A stretch of 64,000 nt of DNA from positions 310,001-374,000 of the forward strand of contig CP143430.1 of assembly GCA_039636795.1 (NCBI GenBank), given 5' to 3'. The position numbers were made by a program, and so were the translations under genes. The stretch comes from Micrococcaceae bacterium Sec5.1. GTDB taxonomy: Bacteria; Actinomycetota; Actinomycetes; Actinomycetales; Micrococcaceae. The notes under the pieces are model-generated. The model was not told the DNA's origin. It saw only the letters and a program-made list of their open reading frames with translations, and did no database searches. This document shows positions 18,981 through 36,428 of the stretch, piece by piece; the first letter of the stretch is position 1; every line of letters starts with the position of its first letter.

Positions 18981-19006
18981 CTATCGTCAATTGTTGACAA
19001 TTGCTA
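18981..19006 (+). promoter_or_regulatory. GntR-type operator/promoter element, copy 1
   Basis: Contains CAATTGTTGACAATTG (18988-19003), 7-bp arms around TG. The 26-bp block matches copy 2 (21614-21639) at 25 positions. It lies 66 bp before the small gene at 19073, matching the 68 bp between copy 2 and the cupin gene, and reads towards both. It is also upstream of the divergent pyruvate oxidase gene. Confidence 0.65.
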
Positions 19007-19072
19007 CGCTTGCTTCATCACCTGAAACCCGGGCCAAGCATCCGCTGAAGCCCCTTGCGTGAAGGACCCCCC

Positions 19073-19312
19073 ATGAAGAAGCGACGCCCCGCTACCCTGG
19101 CTCCAGAGCTCGTTGAAACATCGCGCACGGGGCACCATTGCCCCAAGACCGGATGGTGGTCTGTCGCGGGAGACCCGAGGGACGCCCGGCTCATTACCAA
19201 GGGCGAGGTGATGCCTGCCCTGCACGGCACGCCGGCACTCTGGATCATGCGCGAAACGGCTGCTGGGACCCAAACGGCCCGCCCTGCCGCCAACTTGATG
19301 GCAACTTCATAG
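19073..19312 (+). CDS. Small CPxTG-type protein, 79 aa
   Basis: A 79-residue protein with a central HHCPKTGWWSVAGDP followed by a basic stretch and KGEVMPALHGTPALWIM. This single Cys-Pro-x-Thr-Gly plus Trp pattern recurs in short actinobacterial and proteobacterial proteins of unknown role. GAAGGA lies 6-7 bp upstream of the ATG at 19073. A promoter-like element shared with the catabolic locus precedes it. It converges on the debranching-enzyme gene with a 4-bp gap. Confidence 0.65.
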   Translation: MKKRRPATLAPELVETSRTGHHCPKTGWWSVAGDPRDARLITKGEVMPALHGTPALWIMRETAAGTQTARPAANLMATS

Positions 19313-19316
19313 CCAA

Positions 19317-21473: not shown

Positions 21474-21613
21474 TGTATGGCTCCTCTAAGAACCAAGGAC
21501 GGCCAGTCCCTGTTCCGGGCTCCCGGCTGTCCTGCTACATCGTCACCTCGACGGTACTCTTGCTGGCCTGCCGGGGCTAGCAGGGCGTCCGCTGAATATT
21601 TTCTCCTTCAAGC

Positions 21614-21639
21614 CTATCGTCGATTGTTGACAATTGCTA
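21614..21639 (+). promoter_or_regulatory. GntR-type operator/promoter element, copy 2
   Basis: Core TTGTTGACAA at 21624-21633 within a block nearly identical to copy 1. It ends 68 bp before the cupin start. TTGACA inside the core could act as a -35 box, so a bound regulator would block the promoter. Confidence 0.65.
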
Positions 21640-21707
21640 GGATGGAAACTGTGCTTTCCAAAGACGGCAGGCACGTTCAAAAGGGCCCAGCCCCAGAAGG
21701 AGAATCC

Positions 21708-22064
21708 ATGATCAAGGCCACTGTCATGAGCGACGCAACAACGCAGGACCCGGGGGAGCACATCCCTAAGGCAACCACCAGCACACCGGGCCAGACCGAG
21801 GTCTCGTTCCGTTTGTGGGCCCGCGACAACCACAAGACGGGCATCTGGGAGGTCACGCCGGGCGTGTTCAGGAGCACCCGTCCGGGTTACGACGAGATCT
21901 GCCAGATCCTCAGTGGCAAGGCGACCATCACGGAAGAAGACGGAACCAGCTTCGACATCGGTCCCGGAACGTTGTTCGTTACTCCGGCAGGATGGACGGG
22001 TACCTGGACCATCCACGAGACGCTGCGGAAGATGTGGGTTGTCACGGACGTTCCCACAAGCTAA
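21708..22064 (+). CDS. Cupin-domain protein (DUF861 / ureidoglycine aminohydrolase-like)
   Basis: A 118-residue single cupin: an N-terminal strand (TGIWEVTPGVFRSTRPGYDE), then the motif-1 and motif-2 region (EICQILSGKATITEEDGTSF, DIGPGTLFVTPAGWTGTW). This resembles the DUF861 group. Histidines of the metal site are replaced or absent except near the end (TIHET), so it may be non-metal or a binding protein. GAAGGAG sits 6 bp upstream. A terminator hairpin follows. It is probably an accessory protein of the catabolic regulon; its substrate is unknown. Confidence 0.8.
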   Translation: MIKATVMSDATTQDPGEHIPKATTSTPGQTEVSFRLWARDNHKTGIWEVTPGVFRSTRPGYDEICQILSGKATITEEDGTSFDIGPGTLFVTPAGWTGTWTIHETLRKMWVVTDVPTS

Positions 22065-22070
22065 CTCGCA

Positions 22071-22106
22071 AGGAAGGGCCCGGTTCAACTGAACCGGGCC
22101 CTTCCT
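22071..22106. terminator. Bidirectional intrinsic terminator
   Basis: Perfect 17-bp arms (22071-22087 and 22090-22106) with a 2-base loop, ending the cupin transcript (plus) and the gntR transcript (minus). Confidence 0.85.
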
Positions 22107-22120
22107 GTATGAAGACTTTC

Positions 22121-22813
22121 CTAAGCAGTAATTCCCGTTGCTTCCGGGCTGGAAGTAAGGTCCTCCACGGCCTTTTGCATATGGCGTTTGATGGCCTGCT
22201 GGAGTCCATCGCGGTCCCGGGCCTCGAGGAGGTCAAGGAGCTGCTGGTGCTCCTGCACAAGTGCATCAATGCGGGGATATGCCACCTCCAGGCTCAAAAT
22301 ACACATCCTGGATTCGGCAGCAAGAGTCTCATAAATACGTATGAGCCGCGTGTTTCCAGTGCCTGAAACAAAGGCCGTGTGGAATTGCATGTCGAGGCGG
22401 GCAATGGCCTGCCAGTCCGAGGCCGCAACCTGCTTGGCCATGTTCCGGATGATGCCCTTGAGCTCTCGGCAGGTATCCGCCACCTGCTCTGCGTCCGAGT
22501 CCAAAAGCGTGTTTGCCGCGGCCAACTCCACTGCTTCACGGACAGCGTAGATCTCTTTGACATCCTGCGTGGAAAGCTCCAGCACGAAGACACCGCGGTT
22601 GCGCTTGCTCACCAGGATGCCTTCCTGGCAAAGCCGTTGGAGAGCCTCGCGGAGCGGACCCCGCGAAGTGCTCAGCTGGCTGGCCAAGGCAGATTCATTG
22701 ACCTGCTGGCCAGGTCTGAAGGCCCCTTGGACAATGAGCTCACGTAATTGGTCAGCGATCAGCTGGGCCGTGGGCCGGCCTTCCAATACGAACATTCCCT
22801 CCGGTGCCGCCAT
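22121..22813 (-). CDS. GntR-family (FCD) regulator, probable regulator of the catabolic locus
   Basis: A 230-residue regulator. The winged helix spans residues about 15-75 (NESALASQLSTSRGPLREAL and NRGVFVLE); an FCD domain follows (ARLDMQFHTAFVSGTGN and a late IKRHMQKA, supplying the usual Asp/His metal residues). The ATG at 22813 is preferred because GAGGGG lies 6 bp upstream; an ATG 6 bp earlier overlaps it. It starts 40 bp after the dehydrogenase stop, so it is likely the last gene of the aminotransferase operon. FCD regulators bind TTGT-nn-ACAA dyads, which is what the five local elements show. Confidence 0.88.
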   Translation of the reverse strand: MAAPEGMFVLEGRPTAQLIADQLRELIVQGAFRPGQQVNESALASQLSTSRGPLREALQRLCQEGILVSKRNRGVFVLELSTQDVKEIYAVREAVELAAANTLLDSDAEQVADTCRELKGIIRNMAKQVAASDWQAIARLDMQFHTAFVSGTGNTRLIRIYETLAAESRMCILSLEVAYPRIDALVQEHQQLLDLLEARDRDGLQQAIKRHMQKAVEDLTSSPEATGITA

Positions 22814-22853
22814 TGACATCCCCTCATTTCATGCTTCGGCAATTTTGAAACTA

Positions 22854-24308
22854 TTAGACCGCTATTGCGGTGTACTTGTACTCCAGGAATTCTTCGATTC
22901 CAATTTTTCCGCCCTCGCGTCCGAGTCCGGATTGCTTGACGCCGCCGAACGGTGCCGCGGGGTTGGAAACCAGGCCGGTGTTCAGGCCGACCATTCCGAC
23001 TTCCAGTTCCGCGGAGAACCGCAGTGCCTTGTCCATGCTCTCTGTGAACACGTATCCCACCAGGCCCCACTCAGTATCGTTTGCCAGGCGGAGAACTTCG
23101 TCCTCACTGTCGAATGCGGTGATCGCTGCCACCGGACCGAAGATTTCAGTGCTCATCAGCGCGGCGTCCGTGGGGACATCCACCAGGACAGTAGGGGTGT
23201 AGAAATAGCCGGGGCCATCCGGACGGCTTCCGCCGGTCAGTACGCGTGCTCCCTTGGATACTGCATCTGCAACGAGGCTTTCGACCTTTTCCAAGCCCTT
23301 CTGTTCGATGAGGGGCCCGACGTCGGTACCAGCCTTGGCGCCGTTGCCTACCTGCAATTCTGACATCTTCTTGGAGAACTTCTCGCCAAATTCCTCTACG
23401 ACGGAGCGGTGGACGAAGAAGCGGTTTGCTGCCGTGCAAGCCTCGCCCATGTTGCGCATCTTGGCCTTCATGGCACCGTCCACGGCCTTTTCGATGTCTG
23501 CATCGGCCAGCACGATGAACGGGGCGTTGCCGCCGAGCTCCATGGAGGAGCGCATCACGTTGTCCGCCGCCTGCTTCAGCAGAACCTTGCCCACTTCCGT
23601 GGAACCAGTGAAGCTGATCTTTCGGGCGATGCCACTGTCAGTCCAGGTCCGAACCACCGAGGAGGCAGTGGAGGTTGTCACAACATTCAGCACACCGTCG
23701 GGAAGGCCGGCCTCTTTGAACAGGGCCACCAGAGCCAGCGACGTCAACGGTGTCAGCTCAGCAGGTTTGAACACCATGGTGCAGCCCGCAGCAACGGCCG
23801 GGGCGATCTTGCGGGCACCCATGGCGAGCGGGAAGTTCCACGGAGTCACCAGGACAGAGGGGCCAACTGGTTCCTTGGTAATGAGGATGCGGGTGTTTCC
23901 ATCCACGGAGCTGGCGCTGTCACCACCAATGCGGACTGCTTCTTCCGAGAACCAGCGGAGCATTTCGGCGCCATAGGCTACCTCGCCCCTAGCTTCTGGG
24001 AGTGGCTTGCCCATCTCCGCCGTCATGATCGCGGCGAGCCGGTCGGTGTTGGCGATCACCAGGTCAAAAGCGCGTCGAAGGATATCGGCACGCTGACGAG
24101 GTGTGGACTTGCTCCACTCCGCCTGTGCGCGACCCGCTGCCTGAATAGCCAAGGCAGCGTCTTCAGGGCCGCCGTCGGCAACGTGGGCAATCACTTCGTT
24201 CGTGGCAGGGTTTTCAACGGCGAAGGTGGCACCACTGGCGGCCTTCTGCCACGTTCCGTCAATGAACAGGTCCGTTGGGATGGTGGAGGGATCAAAGGAG
24301 GTAGTCAT
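22854..24308 (-). CDS. gabD: NAD(P)-dependent succinate-semialdehyde dehydrogenase
   Basis: A 484-residue aldehyde dehydrogenase with E257 (MELGGNAPF) and nucleophile C291 (GEACTAANRF), 34 residues apart as in the superfamily, plus VTPWNFPLAMGARK and the C-terminal GLGREGGKIGIEEFLEYKY that marks the GabD group. It oxidises succinate semialdehyde to succinate. It follows the aminotransferase by 26 bp and clearly shares its transcript. This pair is the standard GABA exit route into the TCA cycle; related omega-semialdehydes are possible. Confidence 0.9.
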   Translation of the reverse strand: MTTSFDPSTIPTDLFIDGTWQKAASGATFAVENPATNEVIAHVADGGPEDAALAIQAAGRAQAEWSKSTPRQRADILRRAFDLVIANTDRLAAIMTAEMGKPLPEARGEVAYGAEMLRWFSEEAVRIGGDSASSVDGNTRILITKEPVGPSVLVTPWNFPLAMGARKIAPAVAAGCTMVFKPAELTPLTSLALVALFKEAGLPDGVLNVVTTSTASSVVRTWTDSGIARKISFTGSTEVGKVLLKQAADNVMRSSMELGGNAPFIVLADADIEKAVDGAMKAKMRNMGEACTAANRFFVHRSVVEEFGEKFSKKMSELQVGNGAKAGTDVGPLIEQKGLEKVESLVADAVSKGARVLTGGSRPDGPGYFYTPTVLVDVPTDAALMSTEIFGPVAAITAFDSEDEVLRLANDTEWGLVGYVFTESMDKALRFSAELEVGMVGLNTGLVSNPAAPFGGVKQSGLGREGGKIGIEEFLEYKYTAIAV

Positions 24309-24334
24309 GGTCGCTCTTTCAGTGATCAGGGGGA

Positions 24335-25588
24335 CTAGGAGGTGGCCGTTTTGAGCACCTGCGTGAACTTGGACAGGCCCTGCTGAATTTCATCGCTGCT
24401 GACATTCAGGGCGGGGATGAGGCGAATAACGTTGCCGTGCGGACCGCAGGTGAGGAGCAGGAGTTCTTCCTTGATGGCGGCCTGTTGGACGGCGAGGGCA
24501 GTTGCTGCGTCCGGGGTGTTGTCGGCGGCGGTGAATTCGACGCCCTGCATCAGGCCGCGGCCACGCACGTTGCCGATTCCTGCGAATTCCGCTTGCAGAT
24601 TGTCCAGTCCTGCCCGCAGTTCGTCACCGCGGAGCAAGGCGTTCTCCACGAGGTTCTCGCGCCGGATCACACCCAAAGTTGCGACGCCGGCTGCTGCCGC
24701 GACTGCGTTTCCGCCATAGGTTCCGCCCTGGGAACCTGGCCAAGCCTTGCCCATCAAGTCGGCGGAGGCGGCGATTGCGGAGATGGGGAAGCCGCTGGCA
24801 AGTCCCTTGGCGGTGATCACGACGTCGGGGCTGATTCCTGCCCAGTCGTGTCCCCAGAACTTGCCGGTGCGGCCGACTCCCGCCTGGACCTCGTCCAGGA
24901 TGAGCACGATGCCGTGCTTGTCGGCGCGCTCACGCAGGCCTTGGAGGAATGCGACAGGGGTGGGGATGTACCCGCCGTCACCCAGAACCGGTTCGATGAT
25001 GAAACCGGCCGTATCGCTGGGGGCGCTGATGGTCATCAGAAGGTGGTCGAGTTCCTTCAGGGCGAATTCGACGGCGGTGGCTTCGTCCCAGCCGTACCGG
25101 TACCAGTGCGGGAACGGGGCAACGTGCACGCCACCCATGATGGGGGAGAACCCCGAGCGGAATTTGGTTCCCGCGGTAGTCAAGGAGGCGGCCGCTACTG
25201 TGCGCCCGTGGAACCCACCCTGGAAGGAGATGATGTTGGGCCGTCCGGTGGCCATGCGGGCCAGACGGATGGAGGCCTCTACTGCTTCAGAGCCGGAGGT
25301 TGCGTAGAAGACGCTGTCCAAGCCCTGTGGCAGGACGCCACCCAGCAGTTCCGTGAGTTCCAGGAGGGGCTTGTGCATCACGGTGGTGTACTGGGCATGG
25401 ACAATCTTGCCCACCTGTTCGCGGGCTGCGGCCACCACATCGGGGTGGCAGTGTCCGGTGCTGGTGACGCCGATTCCGGTGGTGAAATCCAGGTACTTCT
25501 TGCCGTCTGTGGCGTGGATCCAACTACCGGACGCGTAGTCCACGACCACTGGAGTGGCCTGCTTCAGGATGGGGCTAAGTGTTGCCAT
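24335..25588 (-). CDS. gabT: Class III aminotransferase (4-aminobutyrate aminotransferase type)
   Basis: A 417-residue PLP enzyme. The PLP lysine is K261 (ITAKGLASGF), preceded by LILDEVQAGVGRTG, the class III aspartate motif, with TGIGVTSTGHCHP near the N-terminus. It likely transfers the amino group of GABA or another omega-amino acid to an oxo acid. The reading frame continues upstream to 25939 but that part is antisense to the FAD oxidoreductase; the real start is the ATG at 25588. A GntR element lies 28 bp upstream of the start, and a terminator separates this operon from the transporter operon. Confidence 0.88.
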   Translation of the reverse strand: MATLSPILKQATPVVVDYASGSWIHATDGKKYLDFTTGIGVTSTGHCHPDVVAAAREQVGKIVHAQYTTVMHKPLLELTELLGGVLPQGLDSVFYATSGSEAVEASIRLARMATGRPNIISFQGGFHGRTVAAASLTTAGTKFRSGFSPIMGGVHVAPFPHWYRYGWDEATAVEFALKELDHLLMTISAPSDTAGFIIEPVLGDGGYIPTPVAFLQGLRERADKHGIVLILDEVQAGVGRTGKFWGHDWAGISPDVVITAKGLASGFPISAIAASADLMGKAWPGSQGGTYGGNAVAAAAGVATLGVIRRENLVENALLRGDELRAGLDNLQAEFAGIGNVRGRGLMQGVEFTAADNTPDAATALAVQQAAIKEELLLLTCGPHGNVIRLIPALNVSSDEIQQGLSKFTQVLKTATS

Positions 25589-25615
25589 GGCTTCATACTT
25601 TCTTAGTAACTGTAG

Positions 25616-25627
25616 ATTGTCAACAAT
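25616..25627 (-). promoter_or_regulatory. GntR-type operator/promoter element, copy 3
   Basis: ATTGTTGACAAT on the minus strand, reading into the aminotransferase gene, 28 bp from its start. The 18 bases beginning at TTGTTGACAA match copy 4 at 17 positions. Confidence 0.7.
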
Positions 25628-25630
25628 ACG

Positions 25631-25659
25631 CGATTCGCGGGTCATTAGCCCGCGAATCG
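25631..25659. terminator. Terminator of the ABC transporter / oxidoreductase operon
   Basis: Perfect 11-bp arms (CGATTCGCGGG and complement) with a 7-base loop, 8 bp after the minus-strand FAD oxidoreductase stop and upstream of the next promoter. Confidence 0.75.
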
Positions 25660-25667
25660 TGTGATGC

Positions 25668-26798
25668 CTAGTTCTTGAACCTCTGTGGACGGACGAAGTC
25701 CAGGCCGTCAAAGCCGCCCTTGCCCAGTGCCTCGCTGGCAGCAATCTGGCCGTAGCCGGAAGCCATCTTGAAGCCGGCTCCGGAGAAACCGGTGGCGGAG
25801 TAGATCCGGCCGGACTCAGTGAAGAAGCCCAGAAGGGGCTGCGAATCCGAGGTGAAGAGGTCCGGGAAGGCATCCGAGCGGACGATGCTGGGAACCAAGC
25901 CCGGGAAGAATTCGGTAATCGTCTCAGTGGTTTCTGCAATCTCCGCTTTGGTCAGCTCCCTGGGCACTGAGTCTGCAGCCGGGGTTGGTGCCCCGCGGCC
26001 ATCAAGCGTGGCTTTAACGGTGACGCCGTCCACCGCGGGCGCTCCATACATGGAGCGATCGCCGGAAATCCTGATGAAGATGGGGAACTTCTCCGGCGTG
26101 AACTGGGTTGCGTCGCGGGCGACGAACCAGCTCAGGAAAATCCTGCGGGTTTCCGTGTGTGCCTTCAGGTACTCGGGCATGAGCTGCTGGGACCACCCAC
26201 CGGATGCGATGATCACCCGTTCGAAGGTCCAGGACTGTTCGCCGGAGGTGACGACAACGCCGTCGTTGGTTTCGGTGATGCTGCTGACAGGAGTATTGCT
26301 GAGGACGGTTGCCCCGTTTGCCTGTGCCGCTGCAACCGCCGCGGTAACTGCCCGATCCGTGCGAAGTGCGCCGCCGAAGGGATCGTAAACGGCTACGTCA
26401 TCAGCCCGGAGGTTGTGCTGCGGGTAGCGTTCCGCCATTTCCTCACGAGTGAGGATTTGGTGCCTCGCTCCGTTGATCCGGGTAGTTTCCAGCAGCTTGG
26501 GAATGTAGGGTCCATCAACTGTGCCGATGGAGAGTCCGCCACACCGGGTGAGGATATCCTGTCCCGTTTCTGCTTCGAGCTCGGCCCAGAGATCCCGTGA
26601 GCGCTCCAGGATGGGGTAGTAGTCCGGCCTTCCCCTGTAAAGCATCCGGAACAGGCGGGTGTCACCACCTACCGCACTTCGGCCATGCCCGGGGGCGTGT
26701 GCTTCGATGCCGACCACGGAATCGGACAACCGTGAGGCCTGCCAGAGTGCCATGCTTCCGATGCTGCCCAGGCCGATGACGGCGAGTTTTCCATCCAT
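25668..26798 (-). CDS. FAD-dependent oxidoreductase, monomeric sarcosine oxidase-like (DAO fold)
   Basis: A 376-residue DAO-family enzyme. The dinucleotide motif GLGSIGSMALWQ starts at residue 9, followed by an MSOX-like region (AVGGDTRLFRMLY) and a C-terminal FAD-binding stretch (SATGFSGAGFKMASGYG). The position where MSOX carries its flavin-linking Cys reads DAFPDLFT, so FAD is probably non-covalent. Such enzymes oxidise secondary amines or N-methyl amino acids to an aldehyde, amine and H2O2. It is 3 bp downstream of the ABC ATPase stop, so it likely acts on the imported compound. Confidence 0.82.
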   Translation of the reverse strand: MDGKLAVIGLGSIGSMALWQASRLSDSVVGIEAHAPGHGRSAVGGDTRLFRMLYRGRPDYYPILERSRDLWAELEAETGQDILTRCGGLSIGTVDGPYIPKLLETTRINGARHQILTREEMAERYPQHNLRADDVAVYDPFGGALRTDRAVTAAVAAAQANGATVLSNTPVSSITETNDGVVVTSGEQSWTFERVIIASGGWSQQLMPEYLKAHTETRRIFLSWFVARDATQFTPEKFPIFIRISGDRSMYGAPAVDGVTVKATLDGRGAPTPAADSVPRELTKAEIAETTETITEFFPGLVPSIVRSDAFPDLFTSDSQPLLGFFTESGRIYSATGFSGAGFKMASGYGQIAASEALGKGGFDGLDFVRPQRFKN

Positions 26799-26801: not shown

Positions 26802-27569
26802 TTAGAGCACCTGCTTCAGGAAGGCCTGGGTGCGTGCTTCTTTGGGGTTCTTCAGGATTTCCCGGGCGTCGCCGCGTTCCACCACGTAGCCCTCGTCCAT
26901 GAAGATCAGGGAATCGGCCACTTCGCGGGCAAAGCCCATCTCGTGGGTGACTACCACCATGGTCATGCCCCTTTTGGCGAGGTCCTGCATGACAGCCAGG
27001 ACTTCCCCTACCTTTTCGGGGTCAAGGGCACTGGTGGGTTCGTCGAACAGGATGATTTCCGGATCCATGGCCAAAGACCGGGCGATGGCCACGCGTTGCT
27101 GCTGCCCGCCGGAAAGTTCGGCCGGGTAGCGGTCGCCGAAAGCGCCGAGGCCCACGCTCGTCAGCAGTTCCTGGGCGCGCTTGGAGGATTCCTTCTTGTC
27201 GGCACCTTTGACGAGCACGGGGCCTGACATGACGTTCTCGCGGGCGGTCATGTTCGGGAACAGGTTGAACTGCTGGAAGACCATGCCTACCCGTGTACGT
27301 TGCTGGGCAAGCTTCTTGGGGGGCAGCGCGTGGTAAGCGTTGTCGGTCTCGTAGTAGCCGAAATCATCGCCGTTGACTTTCAGGATTCCGGAGTCCACGG
27401 TCTCCAGGCCGTTGATGCAGCGCAACAGGGTGGACTTGCCGGAACCGCTGGGTCCGATAATGCAGCAGATTTCACCGCTGGCAATATCGAGGTCGATATC
27501 GTGGAGAACGGTCTTGTGCCCAAAGGACTTACGAATTCGGCGGGCTTGGATCGTGCCGTCGTTGCTCAT
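26802..27569 (-). CDS. Polar amino acid ABC transporter, ATP-binding subunit
   Basis: A 255-residue ABC ATPase of the GlnQ/HisP family: Walker [11 protein letters not shown]-loop [10 protein letters not shown], signature LSGGQQQR, Walker [14 protein letters not shown] and H-loop VTHEMGFA. The ATG at 27569 overlaps the permease stop by 4 bp (ATGA), so expression is coupled. It energises import through the permease upstream. A longer open frame upstream is only a shadow of the permease gene. Confidence 0.93.
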
Positions 27570-28498
27570 CGTGCGATTCCTTCCGGCGCTGTCAGTTGGA
27601 CTTTCCTGGCCTTGCGGGGAACCCGGGCGGAGGTATGGGAGTATTTCTGTTCGAGCTTGGACTGCGGGTAGCTCAGCACCAACGTCATTACCAGGTACCA
27701 GAGGCTCGCGACGATCAGCAGCGGGATGGTCTCGTAGGTGCGTGCGTAGATGAGCTGGGCGCTCTGGAGAAGTTCCGCAACACCCAGGACGCTGACCAAG
27801 GATGTTTCCTTGAACATTCCGATGACCTGGTTGCCGGTAGCCGGAATGATCGAGGGCATGGCCTGGGGAATGATGATCTTGCGCATCTTCGTAGCGGCGC
27901 TCATTCCCAGGGAGTCCGCGGCTTCGATTTGTCCCTTGCCCACCGAGGAGAACCCGCCGCGGATGATTTCTGCCATGTATGCGGCTTCGTTCAACGTCAG
28001 GCCAACCAAGGCTGCGGTGATCGGGCCCATGAGTGCATTCGTGTCGATCGCGGTACCGATGTCGGTAAACGGGATCCCGATGGTCAGGTTCGGGTACAAG
28101 GCCGAAATGTTGAACCAGAAGATCAGCTGGACCAGCACCGGGGTACCGCGGAACAGGGTGATGAAAACGCCCGCTGTGGCCGCGATCGGTTTGACTTTCG
28201 AGGACCTCATGATGGCAATGACCAGGCCGAGGAGGGTGCCCAAGGCCATGCTGGCGACCGTAAGGAAGATGGTGAGCATCAGCCCGCGGAGGATCGATTC
28301 GTGGGTGAAGTACTTGGCCACGACGTCCCACTTGAAATTGGGGTTGGTGGAGACCGAGAAGAGGATGCCCGCGCCAAGCAGGATGGAAACCACCCAAGCG
28401 ACGTATTCAAAAGTACTTCTGCGACGAAGACGGGGCTTGAGTGCCGGATCGATTCCGTTCATTGTCGGTTTGCTTCCGTTACTGATGGTTTGCACCAT
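27566..28498 (-). CDS. Polar amino acid ABC transporter, permease subunit
   Basis: A 310-residue HisM/GlnP-type permease with an N-terminal cytoplasmic tail, about five to six membrane helices and the inner-loop EAA motif region ([24 protein letters not shown]). The ATG at 28498 has GGAGAGG 7 bp upstream; an in-frame start at 28540 would overlap the binding-protein gene. It follows that gene by 13 bp. As no second permease is present, it probably forms a homodimer. Confidence 0.92.
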
Positions 28499-28511
28499 GG
28501 GAGCACCTCTC

Positions 28512-29435
28512 CTAGTTGAGTTTTGCGTCCGTGATGGCACCGGACTCGAGGCCCCAGTTGGCGAGGGACTTCTTGTATTCCGGGCTGTTCAGGACCGACT
28601 GGATGGCGGCCTGGAGGGCGGGAGTCAGGGCAGATCCCTTTTTGACGCCGATAGCGGTGAGGTCGCTGGAGCCAACGTTAACCTGCGGTGTCAGGATCGT
28701 GAAGGCTTTCGGCTGCTGCTTCTCGGCCCAGGCGAGGGAGGTTGTGTCGTAGAAGATACCGTCGATGCGCTTGGACGCCAGCTGGGTCAGGGCTTCCTGG
28801 ACGTTGGGCAGCGTCACGGCGTTGATCGCTGGCTGTCCCTTGGAGGTGCAGGTCTGCTCGTTAAGGGCCGGGAGCCGCTTGAGCTGGCCGGTAGAGCCCT
28901 GGGTGACGGCGATGTTCTTACCGCACAGCGTCTCGTTGGTGAGTTTCAGCGGGTTACCCGCGGCCACGGCCACCGAGTTGCCGGCCTTGAAGTAGTCGAT
29001 CATGTCCAGGACCTTCAACCGCTCATCGGTCTTTGACATGGTCGTGGCGGTGAAGTCGTAGCGGCCACCGTCAAGACCAGGGACGATCGTGTCGAACTTC
29101 GTGTCCTGGAACTTCAGCTTCAGGCCGAGCTTCTTGGCCACCAGGCGGGCGATGTCCGGGTTCAGGCCGATCGCCGTCGAGTTGTCCTCGGCAAGGAACG
29201 TCGTCGGCGGGTAGTGCAGGTCCATCGCGACCGTCAGCTCGCCCTTGTCCTTATAAGATGCCGGCAGGAGGCTCACGGCCTTTTCGTCGGGCTGGACGCC
29301 CTCGGAGATGTCAGTGGTGTTTGAAGTCTTGCTGTCTGGCGTATCGCTGCTGTTGGCTGTTCCGCCGCAGGCGCTCAGTGCGAGTAGTACGGCAAGTCCT
29401 GCAGCTGCAGTCTGGGCCTTGGTTCGAATCTTCAT
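28512..29435 (-). CDS. ABC transporter substrate-binding lipoprotein (family 3)
   Basis: A 307-residue protein with signal peptide and lipobox LSAC (Cys23). The mature part is a family-3 solute-binding fold: GELTVAMDLHYPPTTFLAED, then GLNPDIARLVAKKLGLKL and YDFTATTMSKTDERLKVLDM. This family binds polar amino acids or related amines such as opines and quaternary amines. It is the first gene of the operon, with two GntR-type elements in its promoter region. Substrate cannot be assigned. Confidence 0.9.
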   Translation of the reverse strand: MKIRTKAQTAAAGLAVLLALSACGGTANSSDTPDSKTSNTTDISEGVQPDEKAVSLLPASYKDKGELTVAMDLHYPPTTFLAEDNSTAIGLNPDIARLVAKKLGLKLKFQDTKFDTIVPGLDGGRYDFTATTMSKTDERLKVLDMIDYFKAGNSVAVAAGNPLKLTNETLCGKNIAVTQGSTGQLKRLPALNEQTCTSKGQPAINAVTLPNVQEALTQLASKRIDGIFYDTTSLAWAEKQQPKAFTILTPQVNVGSSDLTAIGVKKGSALTPALQAAIQSVLNSPEYKKSLANWGLESGAITDAKLN

Positions 29436-29542
29436 GGTGCTTCCCTTCGAGGGAGTTGGTCACGGGGGAGGGAGAAGTTCTAGGTTGTAATGTGATCCGG
29501 ATCTCTCCGTCATCTACTGCAATGCAACCCCCTCAACAGTAG

Positions 29543-29554
29543 ATTGTCAACAAT
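29543..29554 (-). promoter_or_regulatory. GntR-type operator/promoter element, copy 4
   Basis: ATTGTTGACAAT on the minus strand, 108 bp upstream of the binding-protein gene and oriented towards it. Immediately downstream it shares CTAC-GTT with copy 3. Confidence 0.7.
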
Positions 29555-29615: not shown

Positions 29616-29625
29616 CTGTTGACAA
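29616..29625 (+). promoter_or_regulatory. GntR-type operator/promoter element, copy 5
   Basis: CTGTTGACAA, one mismatch from the consensus, oriented towards the HAD gene. TTGACA followed 18 bp later by TAGAGT makes a plausible -35/-10 pair. It sits 62 bp from copy 4 in the divergent promoter region. Confidence 0.65.
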
Positions 29626-29695
29626 TTTACAATTTGCCCCCCTAGAGTCGAATCACAAGCCTCCCCTTCCATCTCCCTAAAAGAACGGAAACCCC

Positions 29696-30370
29696 ATGGC
29701 AGAGACCAACTTCCGGCCGAAGTACATCTCCTTCGATGTCTACGGCACGCTGATCAACTTCGACATCGATCCCACAACCCGGCGGCTGCTTGATGGACGT
29801 ATCTCCGAAGAGCAGTGGCCTACGTTCAAGAAGCAGTTCCGTGGCTACCGCTTCGACGAGGTCCTGGGCGACTACAAGCCGTATGAGGCGATCCTTCAGG
29901 ATTCCTTTGACCGCGTGTGCAAGCGCTGGGGCATTGGGCCCACCGAAGGTGCCGGCGCAGCGTTCGCTGAGGCTGTCCGCGGCTGGGTTGCCCACGAGGA
30001 CGTGCCGGCCCCGCTGAAGCTCATGGGCGATAACTACCAGCTTGTGGCTCTGTCCAACGCCGACACCAGCTTCCTGGACATCAGTATTCCCAAGCTCGGT
30101 GCAGAGTGGCACGCCGTGTTCACCGCTGAGCAGGCCCAGGCCTACAAGCCGCGCTACCAGGCTTTTGAGTACATGCTCGATACCCTGAACGCCAAGCCGG
30201 AGGACTTCCTGCACGTCTCCTCGCACACCCGGTACGACATGCACCCGATGCACGACATGGGCTTCCGCAACCTCTGGATGCTGGACCGCGGCTATGACCC
30301 CATTGGCCAGGGCTACGACCTCAACACTGTTACGTCCTTGGACGAGCTCAACAAGCACCTCGGTCTCTAA
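29696..30370 (+). CDS. HAD-family type II haloacid dehalogenase-like hydrolase
   Basis: A 224-residue protein. Motif I FDVYGTLINF holds the nucleophile Asp near residue 14, motif II is LSNAD, and the lysine motif III is YKPR. The motif IV region reads VSSHTRYDM, close to HTRYD-type variants found in haloacid dehalogenase-like proteins linked to amine catabolic genes. It is the first gene of a six-gene plus-strand operon. It may remove phosphate or halide, or be a repair or house-cleaning enzyme for the pathway; nothing decides the substrate. Confidence 0.8.
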   Translation: MAETNFRPKYISFDVYGTLINFDIDPTTRRLLDGRISEEQWPTFKKQFRGYRFDEVLGDYKPYEAILQDSFDRVCKRWGIGPTEGAGAAFAEAVRGWVAHEDVPAPLKLMGDNYQLVALSNADTSFLDISIPKLGAEWHAVFTAEQAQAYKPRYQAFEYMLDTLNAKPEDFLHVSSHTRYDMHPMHDMGFRNLWMLDRGYDPIGQGYDLNTVTSLDELNKHLGL

Positions 30371-30397: not shown

Positions 30398-31675
30398 GTG
30401 AAACTTGTTCCCTACTGGCTCGATACTGCAGAGCCTTCCGGCGATTACCGTCGCACTCCGGTCCCGGAAAACGTTGATGTTGCGATTATCGGTGCCGGTT
30501 TTACCGGGCTGTCAGCAGCCCTTGAATTCGCCAAGCAGGGCGCCAGCGTGGCCGTTTTCGAACGCCACACCGTTGGCTGGGGTGCTTCGGGCCGTAACGG
30601 GGGAATGGCTACGACCGGTTTGGCCATTGGCTTCAGCACGGCAGTCAAGCGCTACGGGGCTCCGCGTGCGGTTGAGATGTTCCGCGAATACAACGACGCG
30701 ATCGAAACCATCGAGAAACTGGTGCACGACAACGGCATCGACTGCGACTTCAAGCGCTTCGGCAAGCTCTCCCTAGCGTTCCACAAGTCCCACTACGACG
30801 GCTTCCTGAAGTCCCAGGAACTGCTCGCCAACCTGGTCGACCACCACGTAAAGGTCATCCCCAAGTCCGAGATCCACAGCGAAATCGGCACGGACTTCTA
30901 CCAGGGTGCCATGATGGATCCGCTGGGTGCCGGGCTCCACGTAGGGAAGTTCGTGCACGGCCTGGCGAAGGTGGCAATCGACAACGGCGCGGCCATCTGC
31001 GAGAACGCATCCGTCACCGAACTGAACAAGGTCTCCGGGACAGTGCACGATGTGCACACCACCCGTGGAATTACCCGGGCCAAGCAGGTCCTGGTCGCCA
31101 CCAGCGGCTACACCGGCAACGTCACCCCGTGGCTGCAGCGTCGCGTGATCCCGGTGGGCAGCTTCATCATCTGCACGGAGCCTCTATCTGAAGAGGTAGT
31201 GAACCGTATCCTGCCCAACAGGCGCCAGGCCTCTGACAGCAAGATGCTGACCTACTACTTCCGGATCACGCCGGACAACAGGCTGCTGTTTGGTGGTAGG
31301 GCCCGATTCGCTTTGTCCAGCCCGGACTCGGACGTCAAGAGCGCCGAAATCCTGCACAAGGCCATGACTGAGCTCTTCCCGTACCTCTCCAAGGCCAAGG
31401 TGGACTACATCTGGGGTGGCCTGGTGGATCTCTCCATGGACCAGATGGTCCATGCCGGCCAGCATGACGGCCTCTTCTACTCCCTCTGCTACAGCGGCCA
31501 TGGTGTTCAGATGGCGGCCCACATGGGTAAGCGGATGGCCCACTACATGGCTGGCGACAAGTCGGCAAATGTGTGGGAAGACCTGAAGAACCCGCCGGTG
31601 CCCGGCCACTTCGGCCCGCCATGGTTCCTGCCGTTCATTGGCGGAGCCGCGAAGATCATCGACCGTATCAAGTAG
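30398..31675 (+). CDS. FAD-dependent oxidoreductase, gamma-glutamylputrescine oxidase-like (PuuB group)
   Basis: A 425-residue DAO-fold enzyme. The N-terminal NAD/FAD motif IIGAGFTGLSAALEFAKQG is followed by WGASGRNGGMATTGLA, characteristic of PuuB-type amine oxidases, and a C-terminal FAD segment (CYSGHGVQMAAHMGKRMA). These enzymes oxidise an amine to an aldehyde with release of ammonia and peroxide. No PuuA-type glutamyl ligase is present, so the amine may be oxidised directly. It is 27 bp downstream of the HAD gene and is followed by an aldehyde dehydrogenase, its natural partner. Confidence 0.85.
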   Translation: MKLVPYWLDTAEPSGDYRRTPVPENVDVAIIGAGFTGLSAALEFAKQGASVAVFERHTVGWGASGRNGGMATTGLAIGFSTAVKRYGAPRAVEMFREYNDAIETIEKLVHDNGIDCDFKRFGKLSLAFHKSHYDGFLKSQELLANLVDHHVKVIPKSEIHSEIGTDFYQGAMMDPLGAGLHVGKFVHGLAKVAIDNGAAICENASVTELNKVSGTVHDVHTTRGITRAKQVLVATSGYTGNVTPWLQRRVIPVGSFIICTEPLSEEVVNRILPNRRQASDSKMLTYYFRITPDNRLLFGGRARFALSSPDSDVKSAEILHKAMTELFPYLSKAKVDYIWGGLVDLSMDQMVHAGQHDGLFYSLCYSGHGVQMAAHMGKRMAHYMAGDKSANVWEDLKNPPVPGHFGPPWFLPFIGGAAKIIDRIK

Positions 31676-31708
31676 ACATTCCGCTAGCCAGGCAAGGTAA
31701 AGGTTCCC

Positions 31709-33259
31709 ATGAGTTCATCAACAACCGTCACTGGAGCGCGCCCAAAAACAGCTGAGGAAACGGCCTACAGGCGGGCAAGCGTTGCGGCGCTTCCCGGTGG
31801 TGCGTTCCTCGAAGGCCTGTGGGAGACCGCTGACAGGATCCTGGAAGTCCGGGACCCTGAAGACGGCCTGCTGCTGGGCACTGTGTGTTCTTCAACCCCG
31901 CAGGATGTCCGTCGGGCGGTTGCCCATATTCACCGCCACCTCCTGGATGATGAATGGCCTCTGCGGGAACGCCGAGAGGCCTTGGAAAGGGCCGCGGTGC
32001 TCGTGGCTGAGCAGTCGGTCCGCTTCTCGGAGATTATTGCCGCGGAGAGCAGCAAGACCATCAACGAGGCCGAGCGTGAAGTGCGCCGGTGCATCGAGAC
32101 GTTGCGGCTTTCGGCGGCAGCGTCGAGTGAACTCGTGGGGGAGACTCTCGGCTTTGAGGACAGCATGGCCGGAGCCAACAAGATCGGCTGGTACAGCCGG
32201 AAACCCGTTGGCATCATCGCCGCCATCACGCCCTTCAACGATCCGCTGAACCTCGTGGCACACAAGCTGGGCCCGGCGCTGATCGGAGGCAACGGCGTCG
32301 TGCTTAAACCCTCAGGCCGCACACCGCTGACCGGGCTGGCTTTTGTCCAGCTGTTGCTTGAGGCCGGTGTTCCGACTGGTCGCATTGCCGCGATCGTGTC
32401 CGGACCGGGGGTGTCCGAAGCGATCGTGACCGACCCCCAGGTGGACCTCATCTCCTTCACCGGCGGGCCAGCGACGGCGGACCGGATTGCTGCCGCTGCT
32501 GGCGCCAAGAAGATCCTTTCGGAGCTGGGCGGCAACAACGCTACGATCGTCTGCGCCGACGCCGAACCGGCAACCGCTGCTGAGGCGATCGTCGCCGGGG
32601 CGTTCGGTGTGGCCGGCCAGAATTGCCTGTCCGTCCAGCGCGTTTACGTCCACATTTCGCTGTTCGACGAAGTCGTTGAAAAGGTACTCACGGGGACCCG
32701 CGCGATCCGCGTCGGAGCAAAGATGGACCGCAGCACCGACGTCGGTCCGCTCATCACCGAAGCGGAGGCCCGCCGGGTGGAGGCCTGGGTGGAGGAAGCC
32801 AAAGCGGCGGGCGCCACCGTTCGTGTGGGCGGTCAGCGCCACGGCGCCTTCTACCAACCAACCGTGCTCACCGATGTGCCGGCAGACGCCCGCGTCATCG
32901 TTGAAGAAGTGTTTGGCCCCGTGGTCAGCATCATGCCCTTCATCCAGATCTCTGACGCCATCCACGCGGCGAATGCCTCCGAATACGGGCTCCAGGCCGG
33001 TGTCTTCACCGAATCCATTGACCTGGCCCTGACGATCGCGGACAAGCTGCACGTGGGGGCTGTGGTCATCAACGAGACCAGCGATGTCCGGATCGACTCC
33101 ATGCCCTTTGGCGGGTTCAAGAAGTCCGGCGTGGGCCGTGAAGGCGTCAAGCACGCCGTCCGCGAAATGACCGAGCCCAAGAGCACCATTATCAAACTGG
33201 CGGAGCCCGCCACCCGCTGGCAGCAGCTGACGGGCACCTCAGAACGGAACGCATCATGA
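31709..33259 (+). CDS. NAD(P)-dependent aldehyde dehydrogenase
   Basis: A 516-residue ALDH with E272 (SELGGNN) and nucleophile C306 (GQNCLSVQRV), 34 residues apart, and AAITPFNDPLNLVAHKLGPAL for nucleotide binding. The variation in the NAD motif (PFNDP rather than PWNFP) is that of the methylmalonate semialdehyde/lactaldehyde-like side of the family. It probably oxidises the aldehyde made by the preceding oxidase. Its stop overlaps the next gene's start by 4 bp (ATGA). Confidence 0.88.
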   Translation: MSSSTTVTGARPKTAEETAYRRASVAALPGGAFLEGLWETADRILEVRDPEDGLLLGTVCSSTPQDVRRAVAHIHRHLLDDEWPLRERREALERAAVLVAEQSVRFSEIIAAESSKTINEAEREVRRCIETLRLSAAASSELVGETLGFEDSMAGANKIGWYSRKPVGIIAAITPFNDPLNLVAHKLGPALIGGNGVVLKPSGRTPLTGLAFVQLLLEAGVPTGRIAAIVSGPGVSEAIVTDPQVDLISFTGGPATADRIAAAAGAKKILSELGGNNATIVCADAEPATAAEAIVAGAFGVAGQNCLSVQRVYVHISLFDEVVEKVLTGTRAIRVGAKMDRSTDVGPLITEAEARRVEAWVEEAKAAGATVRVGGQRHGAFYQPTVLTDVPADARVIVEEVFGPVVSIMPFIQISDAIHAANASEYGLQAGVFTESIDLALTIADKLHVGAVVINETSDVRIDSMPFGGFKKSGVGREGVKHAVREMTEPKSTIIKLAEPATRWQQLTGTSERNAS

Positions 33260-34374
33260 CTACCCACAAAATCGCGGTCATCGCCGGCGACGGTATCGGC
33301 AAGGAAGTGGTCCCCGCGGCCATCGAAACCCTGGAACGAATCGCTGAAATCCACTCCATCAACCTGAAGTTCACGCACTTCGACTGGGGATCTGACTACT
33401 ACGCCCAGCACGGACGCATGATGCCGGTGGACGGCCTGGAGCAGCTGGCGCAGCATGACGCCATTTTCCTGGGTGCCGTGGGCTCCCCGGAGGTGTCCGA
33501 TGCTGAATCGCTGTGGGGGTTGTTGATTCCCATCCGCCGCGAATTCCAGCAGTACATCAACCTGCGTCCGGTAAAAACGCTCGACGGCGTGAAGTCGCCG
33601 CTGGCGAACAAGGAACCGATCGATATCCTCATCGTGCGTGAAAACAACGAAGGGGAATACTCGGAGGTCGGCGGACGCATGTACCGCGGGCTGCCCCACG
33701 AAACCGCGGTCCAGGAAACCATCTTCACCCGCCTGGGAGTATCACGGGCCGCGCACTACGCCGCCTCGCTCGCGTCCTCCCGCAGGGGCCACCTCACCTC
33801 GGCCACCAAGAGCAACGGCATCATCCACACCATGCCTTTCTGGGACGAGGTCGTGGAAGAAACCACCCGCCTCTACCCTGACGTGACGCTCACCAGCGAA
33901 CTGGTGGACGCCTTGGCTGCGCACCTGGTCCTCAAACCCTGGACCCTGGACGTCATTGTCGCCTCGAACCTGCTGGGCGACATCCTCTCGGACCTGGGCA
34001 GCTCCGTCACCGGCTCCATCGGTGTGGCTCCCAGCGCGAACCTGAACCCCGAAGGCGATTTCCCGTCTCTCTTTGAGCCCGTGCATGGCTCTGCTCCGGA
34101 CATCGCAGGCAAGGGACTGGCCAATCCGGTGGGCCAGATGTGGTCGGGTGCGATGATGCTGCAGCACCTAGGCCACCCGGAGGCTGCTGAACACCTGCAG
34201 CTGGCCTTCGAGTCCGCACTGCGCGAGGGCCTCGGGACCCGCGACGTAGGAGGCCCTTCGTCGACGTCGGAGTTCACTGCCGCTGTTATGGCCGCGATCG
34301 ATGTCATTGATGTCGTGGGCTCAATCCTGGACGGCACGGCAGCCAAGTCTGCGGGAGCACCGGCGTCGTCATGA
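33256..34374 (+). CDS. Isocitrate/isopropylmalate dehydrogenase family enzyme, tartrate/D-malate dehydrogenase type
   Basis: A 372-residue beta-decarboxylating dehydrogenase: AVIAGDGIGKEVVPAA at the N-terminus, the substrate loop REFQQYINLRPVK, VRENNEGEYSEVGGR, and ASNLLGDILSDLGSSVTGSIG plus EPVHGSAPDIAGKG. The NNEGEYS and lack of the leucine-pathway insert fit tartrate/D-malate dehydrogenases. It likely converts a 2-hydroxy diacid to a keto acid and CO2. It is fused by 4-bp overlaps to both neighbours, so the stoichiometry is tightly coupled. Confidence 0.85.
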   Translation: MTTHKIAVIAGDGIGKEVVPAAIETLERIAEIHSINLKFTHFDWGSDYYAQHGRMMPVDGLEQLAQHDAIFLGAVGSPEVSDAESLWGLLIPIRREFQQYINLRPVKTLDGVKSPLANKEPIDILIVRENNEGEYSEVGGRMYRGLPHETAVQETIFTRLGVSRAAHYAASLASSRRGHLTSATKSNGIIHTMPFWDEVVEETTRLYPDVTLTSELVDALAAHLVLKPWTLDVIVASNLLGDILSDLGSSVTGSIGVAPSANLNPEGDFPSLFEPVHGSAPDIAGKGLANPVGQMWSGAMMLQHLGHPEAAEHLQLAFESALREGLGTRDVGGPSSTSEFTAAVMAAIDVIDVVGSILDGTAAKSAGAPASS

Positions 34375-35354
34375 CGGTTTCCGATGAACGCAAGAGGCCT
34401 GTTGTCGCGGCACTATACCGGGAGGCTTTACCGCCCCGGTTGGAGGAGATCGAAGCCCTGGCCGAGGTCCGACTGACCAAGGCCGATGGACTGGCTGAAG
34501 CGATGGACGGTGCCGATGTCCTGTACCAGTGGCATTCGTTTTCCCCTGCCTTGCGGGAGAACTGGGACGCGGCGTCGTCTCTGAAATGGGTCCATGTAAC
34601 GGCAGCGGGCGTTAGCCAGCTCCTGTTCGACCAGCTCATCCAGAGCGATGTGGTCTACACGAACTCCCGCGGAGTGCTGAGCCGTGCAATTGCCGAATTC
34701 GCGCTGGGCTTCGTCCTGGATATTGCGAAAGACTCGCAGGGCTCGTTCAAGCTTCAACAGCAGCAGCGCTGGCAGCACAGGGTCACCCGTAAGATCCAGG
34801 GCCAACGCGCTTTGGTGGTGGGCACTGGTTCCATCGGGCGGGAAATCGCGTCCCTGTTCCGTGCCGTGGGTCTGCAGGTCAGCGGTGCCGGACGAAGCAG
34901 CCGTCCAGGGGATGAATTGTTCGACCACATCCATTCTTCCCGGGACCTGGCCGGGATCGTCGGCGACGTCGACTACCTGGTGCTGGCGGCGCCACTGACC
35001 AAGGACACCAAGGGCCTTGTGGACGCTGACGTACTTTCCGCCATGAAATCCACGGCACACCTCATCAATGTGGGCCGTGGGGAGCTGGTACGGACGGACG
35101 CGCTGATGGATGCGCTGACCTCCGGATCCATTGCCGGGGCCGCACTGGACGTGGTCCATCCCGAGCCGCTGCCCGCGGGACATCCTCTGTGGAGCATGGA
35201 GAACGTCATCATCACACCCCACATGAGCGGTGACACTGAGGACTACCTCGACGATCTGGGGCAATTGTTCGTGGACAACCTGCGACGGTTCAGCCAGGGC
35301 GAACCCCTGCAGAACATCGTGGACAAAACTCTTGGGTTCGTCCCGGTCTCCTGA
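34371..35354 (+). CDS. D-2-hydroxyacid dehydrogenase (NAD-dependent)
   Basis: A 327-residue enzyme with the substrate domain first, then a Rossmann motif (LVVGTGSIGREIASLF) near residue 145, the catalytic Arg in INVGRGELV, the Glu in DVVHPEPLP and His in ITPHMSG. It interconverts a 2-oxo acid and D-2-hydroxy acid. It starts with an overlap (ATGA) and ends 33 bp before the alcohol dehydrogenase. The substrate may be a pathway intermediate such as glyoxylate or hydroxypyruvate, but this is unproven. Confidence 0.87.
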   Translation: MTVSDERKRPVVAALYREALPPRLEEIEALAEVRLTKADGLAEAMDGADVLYQWHSFSPALRENWDAASSLKWVHVTAAGVSQLLFDQLIQSDVVYTNSRGVLSRAIAEFALGFVLDIAKDSQGSFKLQQQQRWQHRVTRKIQGQRALVVGTGSIGREIASLFRAVGLQVSGAGRSSRPGDELFDHIHSSRDLAGIVGDVDYLVLAAPLTKDTKGLVDADVLSAMKSTAHLINVGRGELVRTDALMDALTSGSIAGAALDVVHPEPLPAGHPLWSMENVIITPHMSGDTEDYLDDLGQLFVDNLRRFSQGEPLQNIVDKTLGFVPVS

Positions 35355-35387
35355 TCCTGTTTCCTGTTTCCCGAAAGAAGAAATGCC

Positions 35388-36428
35388 GTGCCAAGTACCG
35401 TGAAGGCCTATGTAGCCACTTCTCCCACCTCGGACCTCGCGCCGGGCACTGTGGAACGGCGGGATCCCGGCGATTTCGATGTGCAGATTTCCATCAGGTA
35501 CACCGGAATCTGCCACTCGGACATCCATGCTGCACGTGGAGACTGGGCCAGCAACTACCCCTTGGTGGTTGGCCACGAAATCGTCGGAGTGGTGGAAGCC
35601 ATCGGTTCCAGAGTCACCCGGCACTCGGTGGGGGACCGCGTGGGAGTGGGCTGCTTCGTTGATTCCTGCAGGGAATGCGTCAATTGCCGTGCAGGCGAGG
35701 AGCAGTACTGCCTGCAAGGTGCAACCAGCACCTACAACTCGTTCGGCCGTGACGGTCTGCCCACTGCCGGTGGTTACAGCACAAGCATCGTGGTGGATGA
35801 GAACTACGTCCTCAGAATCCCCGACGGCATAGACCTCCAGGAGGCGGCCCCACTGCTGTGCGCGGGAATCACCATGTACGCACCGTTGCGTAACTGGAAA
35901 GCCGGGCCAGGCAAGCGCGTGGCCATCATCGGTATGGGCGGCCTGGGCCATATGGGCGTGAAGATCGCTGCGGCCTTGGGAGCCGAAGTCACGGTGCTCA
36001 GCCAATCGCTGAAGAAGCAGGAGGACGCCGTCCGGCTCGGCGCCCACAGCTACTACGCAACATCTGAACCGGCAACCTTCGAATATCTGAAGGGTCAGCT
36101 GGACCTGATCATCAACACTGTCTCCGCGGACGTCGATGTGGATGCGTACCTGTCCTTGCTTGCCTTGGATGGCACCATGGTCCTCGTGGGCCTGCCCTCA
36201 AAACCCCTGAGCCAGCGCGCGTGGTCGCTGGTGGAATTCCGACGCAACCTCAGTGGCTCAAGGATGGGCGGAATCCGGCAAACCCAGGAAATGCTGGACT
36301 TCTGTGCTGCCCACAGACTGGGGGCAGACGTGGAAGTCATTCAAGCAAGCCAGATCAACGAAGCATTCGAACGGGTGCTCGCCAGCGATGTCCGCTACCG
36401 CTTCGTCATCGACGCAAGTACATTCTGA
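35388..36428 (+). CDS. Zinc-dependent alcohol dehydrogenase (MDR, cinnamyl-alcohol type)
   Basis: A 346-residue MDR enzyme. Catalytic zinc ligands are in TGICHSDIH and GHEIVGVV; structural zinc cysteines are in [15 protein letters not shown]; the cofactor motif is [13 protein letters not shown]. It starts at GTG 35388 after an A/G-rich ribosome binding site. The family reduces or oxidises aldehydes, usually with NADP. It is the last gene of the operon; a short AT spacer then precedes a convergent LysR gene. Confidence 0.88.

Follow-up and report, generated by a model that had tools for sequence, protein, structure and literature searches.

A rare and conserved GntR-type element as the likely operator of five catabolic promoters in Micrococcaceae bacterium Sec5.1

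HypR of Streptomyces coelicolor is an FCD-type GntR repressor of L-hydroxyproline genes (PMC6608401). CsiR (GlaR) of Escherichia coli, a GntR-type repressor too, is encoded beside gabD and gabT (PMC6265302), and regulators of the FadR subfamily bind sites built from TKGT and ACMA boxes, in which the gap between GT and AC is typically 3 nt, and 2 nt in several groups (PMC4494728). Here we describe a comparable locus in a 64,000-nucleotide stretch of the Micrococcaceae bacterium Sec5.1 genome (contig CP143430.1, positions 310,001 to 374,000), called the window below. The ten-base near-palindrome TTGTTGACAA, in one case with a single mismatch, stands before five genes or presumed operons of this locus, which also encodes an FCD/FadR-type GntR protein (22121-22819). 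With a probability that we put at about 0.82, the element is the operator of this protein, an autoregulated repressor that would cover all five core promoters. A first-pass annotation of the window had proposed that one GntR-type element links five promoters into a catabolic regulon, and the proposal is supported by the rarity of the element and by its conservation. The predicted operator copies are the following.

18991..19000, + strand: operator copy 1, TTGTTGACAA, between a poxB-like gene and the gene of a small CPxTG protein
21624..21633, + strand: operator copy 2, TTGTTGACAA, before a cupin gene
25617..25626, - strand: operator copy 3, TTGTTGACAA, 28 nt before the ATG of an aminotransferase gene
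29544..29553, - strand: operator copy 4, TTGTTGACAA, 108 nt before the ATG of a solute-binding protein (SBP) gene
29616..29625, + strand: operator copy 5, CTGTTGACAA, before a haloacid dehalogenase (HAD) family gene; its TTGACA begins at 29619

The positions are those given by the first-pass annotation: four copies are exact, and the one at 29616 carries a single change, C at position 1. The finer claims made there also hold, in that every copy is oriented with its downstream gene, copies 1 and 2 are identical at 25 of 26 positions with the 26-mers ending 66 and 68 bp before the ATG, and copies 3 and 4 are identical at 17 of 18. The 26-bp block shared by copies 1 and 2 occupies 18981-19006 (CTATCGTCAATTGTTGACAATTGCTA) and 21614-21639, and the 10-mers themselves end 72 and 74 bp before the ATG. 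At up to one mismatch, the window contains seven matches to the element, against a mean of 1.97 and a maximum of 5 in 100 shuffles. Both matches beyond the five copies differ from the element by one base (17512, TTGTTGAAAA; 52683, TCGTTGACAA); the former falls within the poxB-like gene and is found again within that gene in a related locus (L010), as expected of coding sequence. About 880 bp of the 17,448 in 18981-36428 are non-coding, and all five copies fall between the chosen coding sequences. This status depends on the choice of starts, since longer open reading frames with upstream starts (21351-22064 and 24335-25939) span copies 2 and 3; the chosen start codons agree with homologous proteins.

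The genome search suggested by the first-pass annotation found the exact element to be rare outside the locus. The genome, a single contig of 5,426,886 bp, contains nine exact copies of TTGTTGACAA, four of them inside 10.6 kb of the locus and five in the remainder. At the outside density, 0.016 exact copies are expected in 17.4 kb (Poisson P(>=4) = 2.8e-9, for an interval that was chosen on account of its sites). The extended 11-mer YTGTTGACAAT occurs eight times in the genome, five of them at the locus, against one occurrence of the reversed pattern.

Conservation was assessed at 42 loci from Arthrobacter, Paenarthrobacter, Sinomonas, Nocardia and one Microbacterium, retrieved by searching genome contigs with the GntR protein. 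The loci extend up to 10 kb to each side, with the distal enzymes (from the tartrate-type dehydrogenase onwards) and the LysR-type gene mostly beyond reach. A gene was taken as testable at 50% identity or more, with the alignment beginning no later than residue 15 and with 260 bp of upstream sequence present, and the element was scored in gene orientation at up to one mismatch. It precedes the aminotransferase gene in 26 of 26 testable orthologues, all exact; the HAD gene in 22 of 22, with one exact match and with the leading C itself conserved; the CPxTG gene in 5 of 5 and the cupin gene in 8 of 10, exact in both; and the SBP gene in 20 of 34 orthologues and paralogues (19 exact). The five target genes together carry it in 81 of 97 testable promoters, and nine other genes in 3 of 237 upstream regions: two ABC permeases (of 35) and one gntR (of 52) match, with none before aldehyde dehydrogenase (ALDH; 0/18), DAO-type oxidase (0/19), ABC ATPase (0/32), soxA (0/36), succinate-semialdehyde dehydrogenase (SSADH; 0/29), glycogen-debranching-like (0/15) or poxB-like (0/1) genes. 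The reversed motif gives two matches in the same loci, one at HAD and one at gntR. Presence in relatives had been named in the first-pass annotation as a check of the regulon, and the element is kept at the orthologous promoters of all five target genes. A further search of our genome and the 27 genomes behind the loci found ATCGTCRATTGTTGACAAT, at up to one mismatch, in 27 of 28 (reversed control 0/28), the Sinomonas genome being the sole one without it. For copy 1 the target may instead be the poxB-like gene, whose start is only 34 bp away; in L010 the element is flanked by both genes, but the CPxTG orthologues of L017, L018 and L031 have the element with no poxB-like match in the gene lists of these loci.

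Ungapped alignments of the element-bearing promoters, our own included (27 aminotransferase, 21 SBP, 23 HAD, 9 cupin and 6 CPxTG), show the conserved footprint. The ten bases of the element carry a mean of 1.93-2.00 bits per position. The twenty bases immediately upstream carry 0.34-0.92 bits in the aminotransferase, SBP and HAD sets and 1.17-1.33 bits in the cupin and CPxTG sets, where a CTATCGT box is conserved; the ten more distal bases on the upstream side carry 0.16-0.18 and 0.78-0.80 bits, respectively. A TANNNT word follows the element at offset 5 in all 15 cupin and CPxTG promoters (9/9 and 6/6) and at offset 3 in 22 of 27 aminotransferase promoters. HAD promoters have TANNNT 18 nt after the TTGACA of the element in 21 of 23 cases and 17 nt after it in the other two, with an additional TANNNT at offset 3 in 16 of 23. 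SBP promoters have TTGCAT at a spacing of 17 in 20 of the 21 with the element, and 8 of the 21 have TANNNT at offset 3. The window itself contains the following candidate -10 elements and a hairpin, all with predicted roles.

19005..19010, + strand: candidate -10 TACGCT, right after copy 1
21638..21643, + strand: candidate -10 TAGGAT, after copy 2
25609..25614, - strand: candidate -10 TACAGT, after copy 3
29522..29527, - strand: candidate -10 TTGCAT, 17 nt after the TTGACA of copy 4
29643..29648, + strand: candidate -10 TAGAGT, 18 nt after the TTGACA in copy 5, with 10/12 consensus matches
25631..25659, - strand: terminator-like hairpin, stem of 11 pairs, separating copy 3 from the transporter-oxidase operon

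Copies 1 and 2 thus lie just upstream of a predicted -10 and copy 5 over a predicted -35, while copy 3 is probably just upstream of a -10 and copy 4 probably over a -35; the promoter architecture around the sites seems to vary. A sigma-70 scan reports only the HAD promoter of the five, and two sites in all against 3.5 in shuffles. The hairpin parts the transporter-oxidase operon from copy 3, and therefore aminotransferase, SSADH and gntR are likely to form a separate, autoregulated unit; terminator-like sites number nine in the scan, not above the shuffles (14.2).

The protein encoded at 22121-22819 bears out the claim that an FCD-type GntR lies within the locus. Both its N-terminal winged helix-turn-helix domain (PF00392, 64.7 bits, cut-off 27) and its C-terminal FCD domain (PF07729, 81.9 bits, cut-off 24.3) score above their cut-offs. 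By likeness to the histidines of HypR and TM0439, D143, H147, H191 and H213 are putative metal ligands of the FCD domain; among 49 proteins that are at least 60% identical, our own included, the aspartate is present in 48 and each histidine in all 49. Assignments to CsiR (NF008576, 55.9 bits, cut-off 218), to PhnR, the Burkholderia-type phosphonate regulator (TIGR03338, 136.6 bits, cut-off 271.5), and to LldR (NF007741, 59 bits, cut-off 311) were rejected. The first-pass annotation had called TTGT-nn-ACAA the usual form for FCD-type regulators. The element does belong to the TKGT/ACMA class, but its 2-nt centre is the less common spacing (PMC4494728). In the same source, Arg at helix-turn-helix position 28 goes with G/C as the second letter of the box, Pro at position 40 avoids G/C there, and Asn at position 59 leans towards A/T, though not significantly (PMC4494728). 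Numbered after FadR, the present GntR has Ser, Pro and Asn at these positions, a combination that suits TTGT over TGGT; Ser at position 28 is not discussed in that source.

In the mechanism that we propose, a GntR dimer would bind the near-palindrome TTGT-TG-ACAA within the five core promoters. At the CPxTG and cupin promoters, and probably at that of the aminotransferase, it would sit just before the TANNNT -10; at the HAD promoter, and probably at the SBP one, it would cover the TTGACA -35. From either position, we infer, the bound protein would keep RNA polymerase away. The substrate would enter through the family-3 ABC transporter, a carboxylate of the pathway would bind the presumably metal-containing FCD domain, and the dimer would leave. 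The transporter, the two FAD oxidases, the aminotransferase, SSADH, ALDH, the dehydrogenases, the cupin and the CPxTG protein would then be induced jointly. The gntR gene, last in the aminotransferase operon, would probably be autoregulated through copy 3.

The word is not confined to this regulator. In 245 genomes of the bacterial family, YTGTTGACAAT occurs 440 times, against 80 for the reversed control. The eight genomes with this GntR (E 1e-60 or better) have four to nine sites each (mean 5.5), and the 237 without it have a mean of 1.67. Nineteen stretches with nearby sites were picked by eye among the matches listed, as a selection from the clusters, and GntR-like genes were called in them with a profile derived from the GntRs already collected. 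An FCD-type GntR-like gene is contained in 12 of the 16 picked clusters from genomes without this GntR, far above chance, because FCD genes number 34 in the 5.43 Mb of our own genome, or about one per 160 kb. The remaining three stretches have a GntR-like gene in L075 and L076 and none in L074. An [RQ]NR wing is found in 11 of the 12 GntRs and an SRG helix in 9 (five SRGP, two SRGN, one SRGH, one SRGS; the other three have SRSA). As a tentative reading, which we hold to be less probable than not, TTGTTGACAAT might be one operator word common to a set of FCD GntRs of this bacterial family, recognisable by the [RQ]NR wing and in most cases by an SRG- helix. Their paralogues, with different inducers, would have multiplied in adjoining amine-catabolic islands while keeping the same DNA specificity, and would read each other's operators, forming an overlapping network. 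If true, this would be relevant to how repressors that arose by duplication escape crosstalk or make use of it.

Several observations weigh against the assignment of the element to an operator of the local GntR. At up to one mismatch the genome has 272 matches, against 185 for the control, and the general form TTGTNNACAA is without genome enrichment (47 sites against 46 in the control); as the exact word is clustered and the general form is not enriched, the signal is that of the exact word at the locus. The element is absent, at up to one mismatch, before 14 of the 34 SBP genes, nine of which carry YTGTCGAYKA-like words (mostly second transporter copies) and three, from two Nocardia and one Sinomonas, carry CTGTCGACAA, with no similar word upstream of the other two; it is also absent before both Nocardia cupin genes. 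All 42 loci were fetched through the GntR, a search that would overlook sites lacking the regulator, and the species share descent; conservation is therefore shown, and independence is not. At least four YTGTTGACAAT sites are present in 36 of the 237 family genomes without this GntR, which makes the word shared and not private, and no GntR was found in four of the 16 picked clusters (L060, L069, L072 and L077). Conservation also extends past the operator, with 0.91-1.82 bits in the first ten downstream bases. Finally, TTGACA is the consensus hexamer of the sigma-70 -35 box, which adds background.

Three alternatives to a GntR repressor at these sites were weighed. An activator role for the GntR, or repression at some sites and activation at others, is unlikely. 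The candidate promoter layouts differ among the sites, as such a role might have it, and FadR offers the precedent of a regulator that represses or activates according to precisely where its site lies (PMC6608401); the five sites, however, overlap or directly adjoin predicted core promoters, and none is clearly upstream of a -35.

Still more doubtful is that a different regulator recognises the element, be it one or more of the other FCD proteins of the genome or the product of a nearby gene, for example the LysR-type protein (36446-37348). Within the family, FCD GntRs of several lineages have the word next to them, several relatives have two or three linked gntR copies, and the fetched loci end before the place of the LysR gene, so that conservation does not weigh against it. 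Against this, the SRGP helix and RNRG wing are combined only in the window's GntR among 33 aligned FCD proteins of the genome (of the 34, the protein at 2517880 was not included). One paralogue has SRGP with a different wing, another has PNRG, and the nearest paralogue is only 32% identical. Two other FCD GntR genes of the genome (620972 and 2138328) have TTGTATACAA, with a different centre, directly upstream, and are themselves probably autoregulated through it. The regulator of TTGTTGACAA within this genome is thus most likely the GntR of the locus, on the strength of linkage, autoregulatory position and recognition residues, the motif alone being insufficient.

That the element is a mere strong sigma-70 -35 of well-expressed promoters, with no dedicated regulator, is the least likely of the three and was rejected as the whole story: its orientation is always with the gene and HAD has TAGAGT at the right distance, but all ten bases are conserved, including a TTGT that a -35 does not need, the offset-5 TANNNT of the cupin and CPxTG promoters is too near for TTGACA to be its -35, and both the crowding of exact sites at the locus and the FCD-type GntRs beside 12 of the 16 picked clusters speak for a dedicated regulator.

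The genes of the presumed regulon and its surroundings are as follows, with model scores against cut-offs.

19073..19312, + strand: small CPxTG protein, 79 aa, with a GHHCPKTGWW motif; no Pfam family, and only an 18-bit NCBIfam match below cut-off (scanned one codon longer, from 19070)
21708..22064, + strand: EutQ-like cupin, PF05899 69.6 bits, cut-off 23.5 (scanned from 21714)
22121..22819, - strand: FCD/FadR-type GntR regulator, last gene of the presumed aminotransferase operon
22854..24308, - strand: SSADH-like ALDH, PF00171; TIGR01780 577.7 bits, under the cut-off of 646.35
24335..25588, - strand: class-III aminotransferase, gamma-aminobutyrate (GABA)-transaminase-like, PF00202; E. coli GABA aminotransferase 1sf2 at 1.8e-81 (searched in the shorter form 24335-25561)
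25668..26798, - strand: FAD oxidase like sarcosine oxidase and N-methyltryptophan oxidase, PF01266; NF008425 254.7, cut-off 257; 7exs at 1.1e-45
26802..27605, - strand: amino-acid-type ABC transporter ATPase, PF00005; best NCBIfam models under cut-off
27566..28540, - strand: ABC permease, PF00528; TIGR01726 72.3, over the cut-off of 42.2
28512..29435, - strand: family-3 SBP, PF00497 94.9 bits, cut-off 26.4
29696..30370, + strand: HAD type II hydrolase, TIGR01428 136.4, over the cut-off of 125.4
30398..31675, + strand: FAD amine/amino-acid oxidase, DAO-type; NF050086 (pipecolate oxidase) 175.1, cut-off 600, which indicates the family only; no solved-structure relative at 1e-15
31709..33259, + strand: aldehyde dehydrogenase, with the 25 models listed all below cut-off
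33256..34374, + strand: tartrate dehydrogenase family, TIGR02089 514.9, over the cut-off of 470.4
34371..35354, + strand: D-2-hydroxyacid dehydrogenase, NF041369 235.3, cut-off 400
35388..36428, + strand: zinc alcohol dehydrogenase / aldehyde reductase-like, NF047908 298.8, cut-off 470
36446-37348: LysR-type gene

The NCBIfam models listed for the enzymes of the cluster are under cut-off, the exceptions being HAD type II, tartrate dehydrogenase and the permease domain. The substrate is likely to be an amine or amino acid, as judged from the family-3 SBP transporter, the two FAD oxidases and the GABA-transaminase-like and SSADH-like enzymes. An aminophosphonate pathway was considered and rejected: TIGR03338, TIGR03329 and TIGR03250 rank high, yet all are far under cut-off.

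The remaining YTGTTGACAAT copies of the genome lie at 1285489, 2394326 and 3019344. The last (3019336-3019354; L105:9337) reads ATCGTCAATTGTTGACAAT and has a left flank identical to that of copy 1; Arthrobacter sp. NtRootA1 has ATCGTCAATTGTTGACGAT at the matching place, so the site is partly conserved and may be a sixth member of the regulon. Its neighbours, judged by reading the translations, are flavin reductase-like and monooxygenase-like genes. Near 1285489 (L107), dense inverted repeats (CTGTTGACAATGTCAACAG and GTTGACAGTGTCAAC) lie close to a gene whose translation, as we read it, looks TetR-like, and are perhaps operators of a different regulator that mimic the word.

Related loci show some variation of their own. 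Six of them (L040, L041, L045, L046, L049 and L050) have adjoining islands with other HAD, DAO, SSADH and gntR paralogues, and these islands carry TTGTTGACAA or the fully symmetric TTGTCGACAA, with some copies close together. Cupin-type operator-promoters aimed at the 3' end of gntR, with no cupin match after them, occur at L018:10802, L020:14511, L021:13605, L023:10787, L031:10837, L032:14840 and L033:1166; those of L018, L023 and L032 lead into what looks by eye like a hairpin. Eight sites of this kind were inspected and showed no consistent small open reading frame; they are possibly remnants of cupin loss. From copy 5 to the start of the HAD gene, the leader (29626-29695) measures 70 nt, against 124-149 nt in the 22 relatives measured, which keep its length and hardly its sequence; about 77 nt of it appear to be missing from the window strain through loss.

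The locus is probably a well-conserved catabolic regulon whose type of control circuit is already known. For a regulon of soil actinobacteria, the analysis names the likely regulator, operator and members, and two genes of unknown role, those of the CPxTG protein and the cupin, join it on promoter evidence. It also offers a testable recognition rule, namely that the [RQ]NR wing reads TTGT-TG-ACAA, for a single group within a very large family of regulators. Among the open-licence PMC papers listed for FCD operators, for Arthrobacter and Paenarthrobacter GntR, for the gene set and for the motif string, we found no description of this regulon; the words 'Arthrobacter' and 'GABA' are absent from the main text of PMC4494728, and the accessible part of that paper names neither the orthologous group of this GntR nor the TG centre.

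Among the described systems, the FadR-subfamily operators are the nearest in sequence, with TKGT and ACMA boxes whose GT and AC are 2 nt apart as in the present element, and the weaker half-sites reported 7-12 nt from their centre may be compared with the ACA box that follows copies 3 and 5 (PMC4494728). With CsiR of E. coli the locus shares the company of the regulator, here SSADH-like and GABA-transaminase-like genes, and one of the two primary CsiR sites (TTGTN5TTTT and ATGTN5TTTT) begins with TTGT, as the present element does; CsiR is relieved by the carboxylate glutarate, where we only propose a carboxylate inducer, and controls one operon, where we propose five units (PMC6265302). HypR differs in its pathway and in its hardly palindromic motif, CTNTGC(A/C)ATGTCAC (PMC6608401). 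Like the present GntR, however, it is an actinobacterial FCD protein with several promoters, a three-histidine metal site and autorepression, all three only predicted here, and the site in its own promoter covers the -10 region (PMC6608401), comparable to copy 3 beside its candidate -10.

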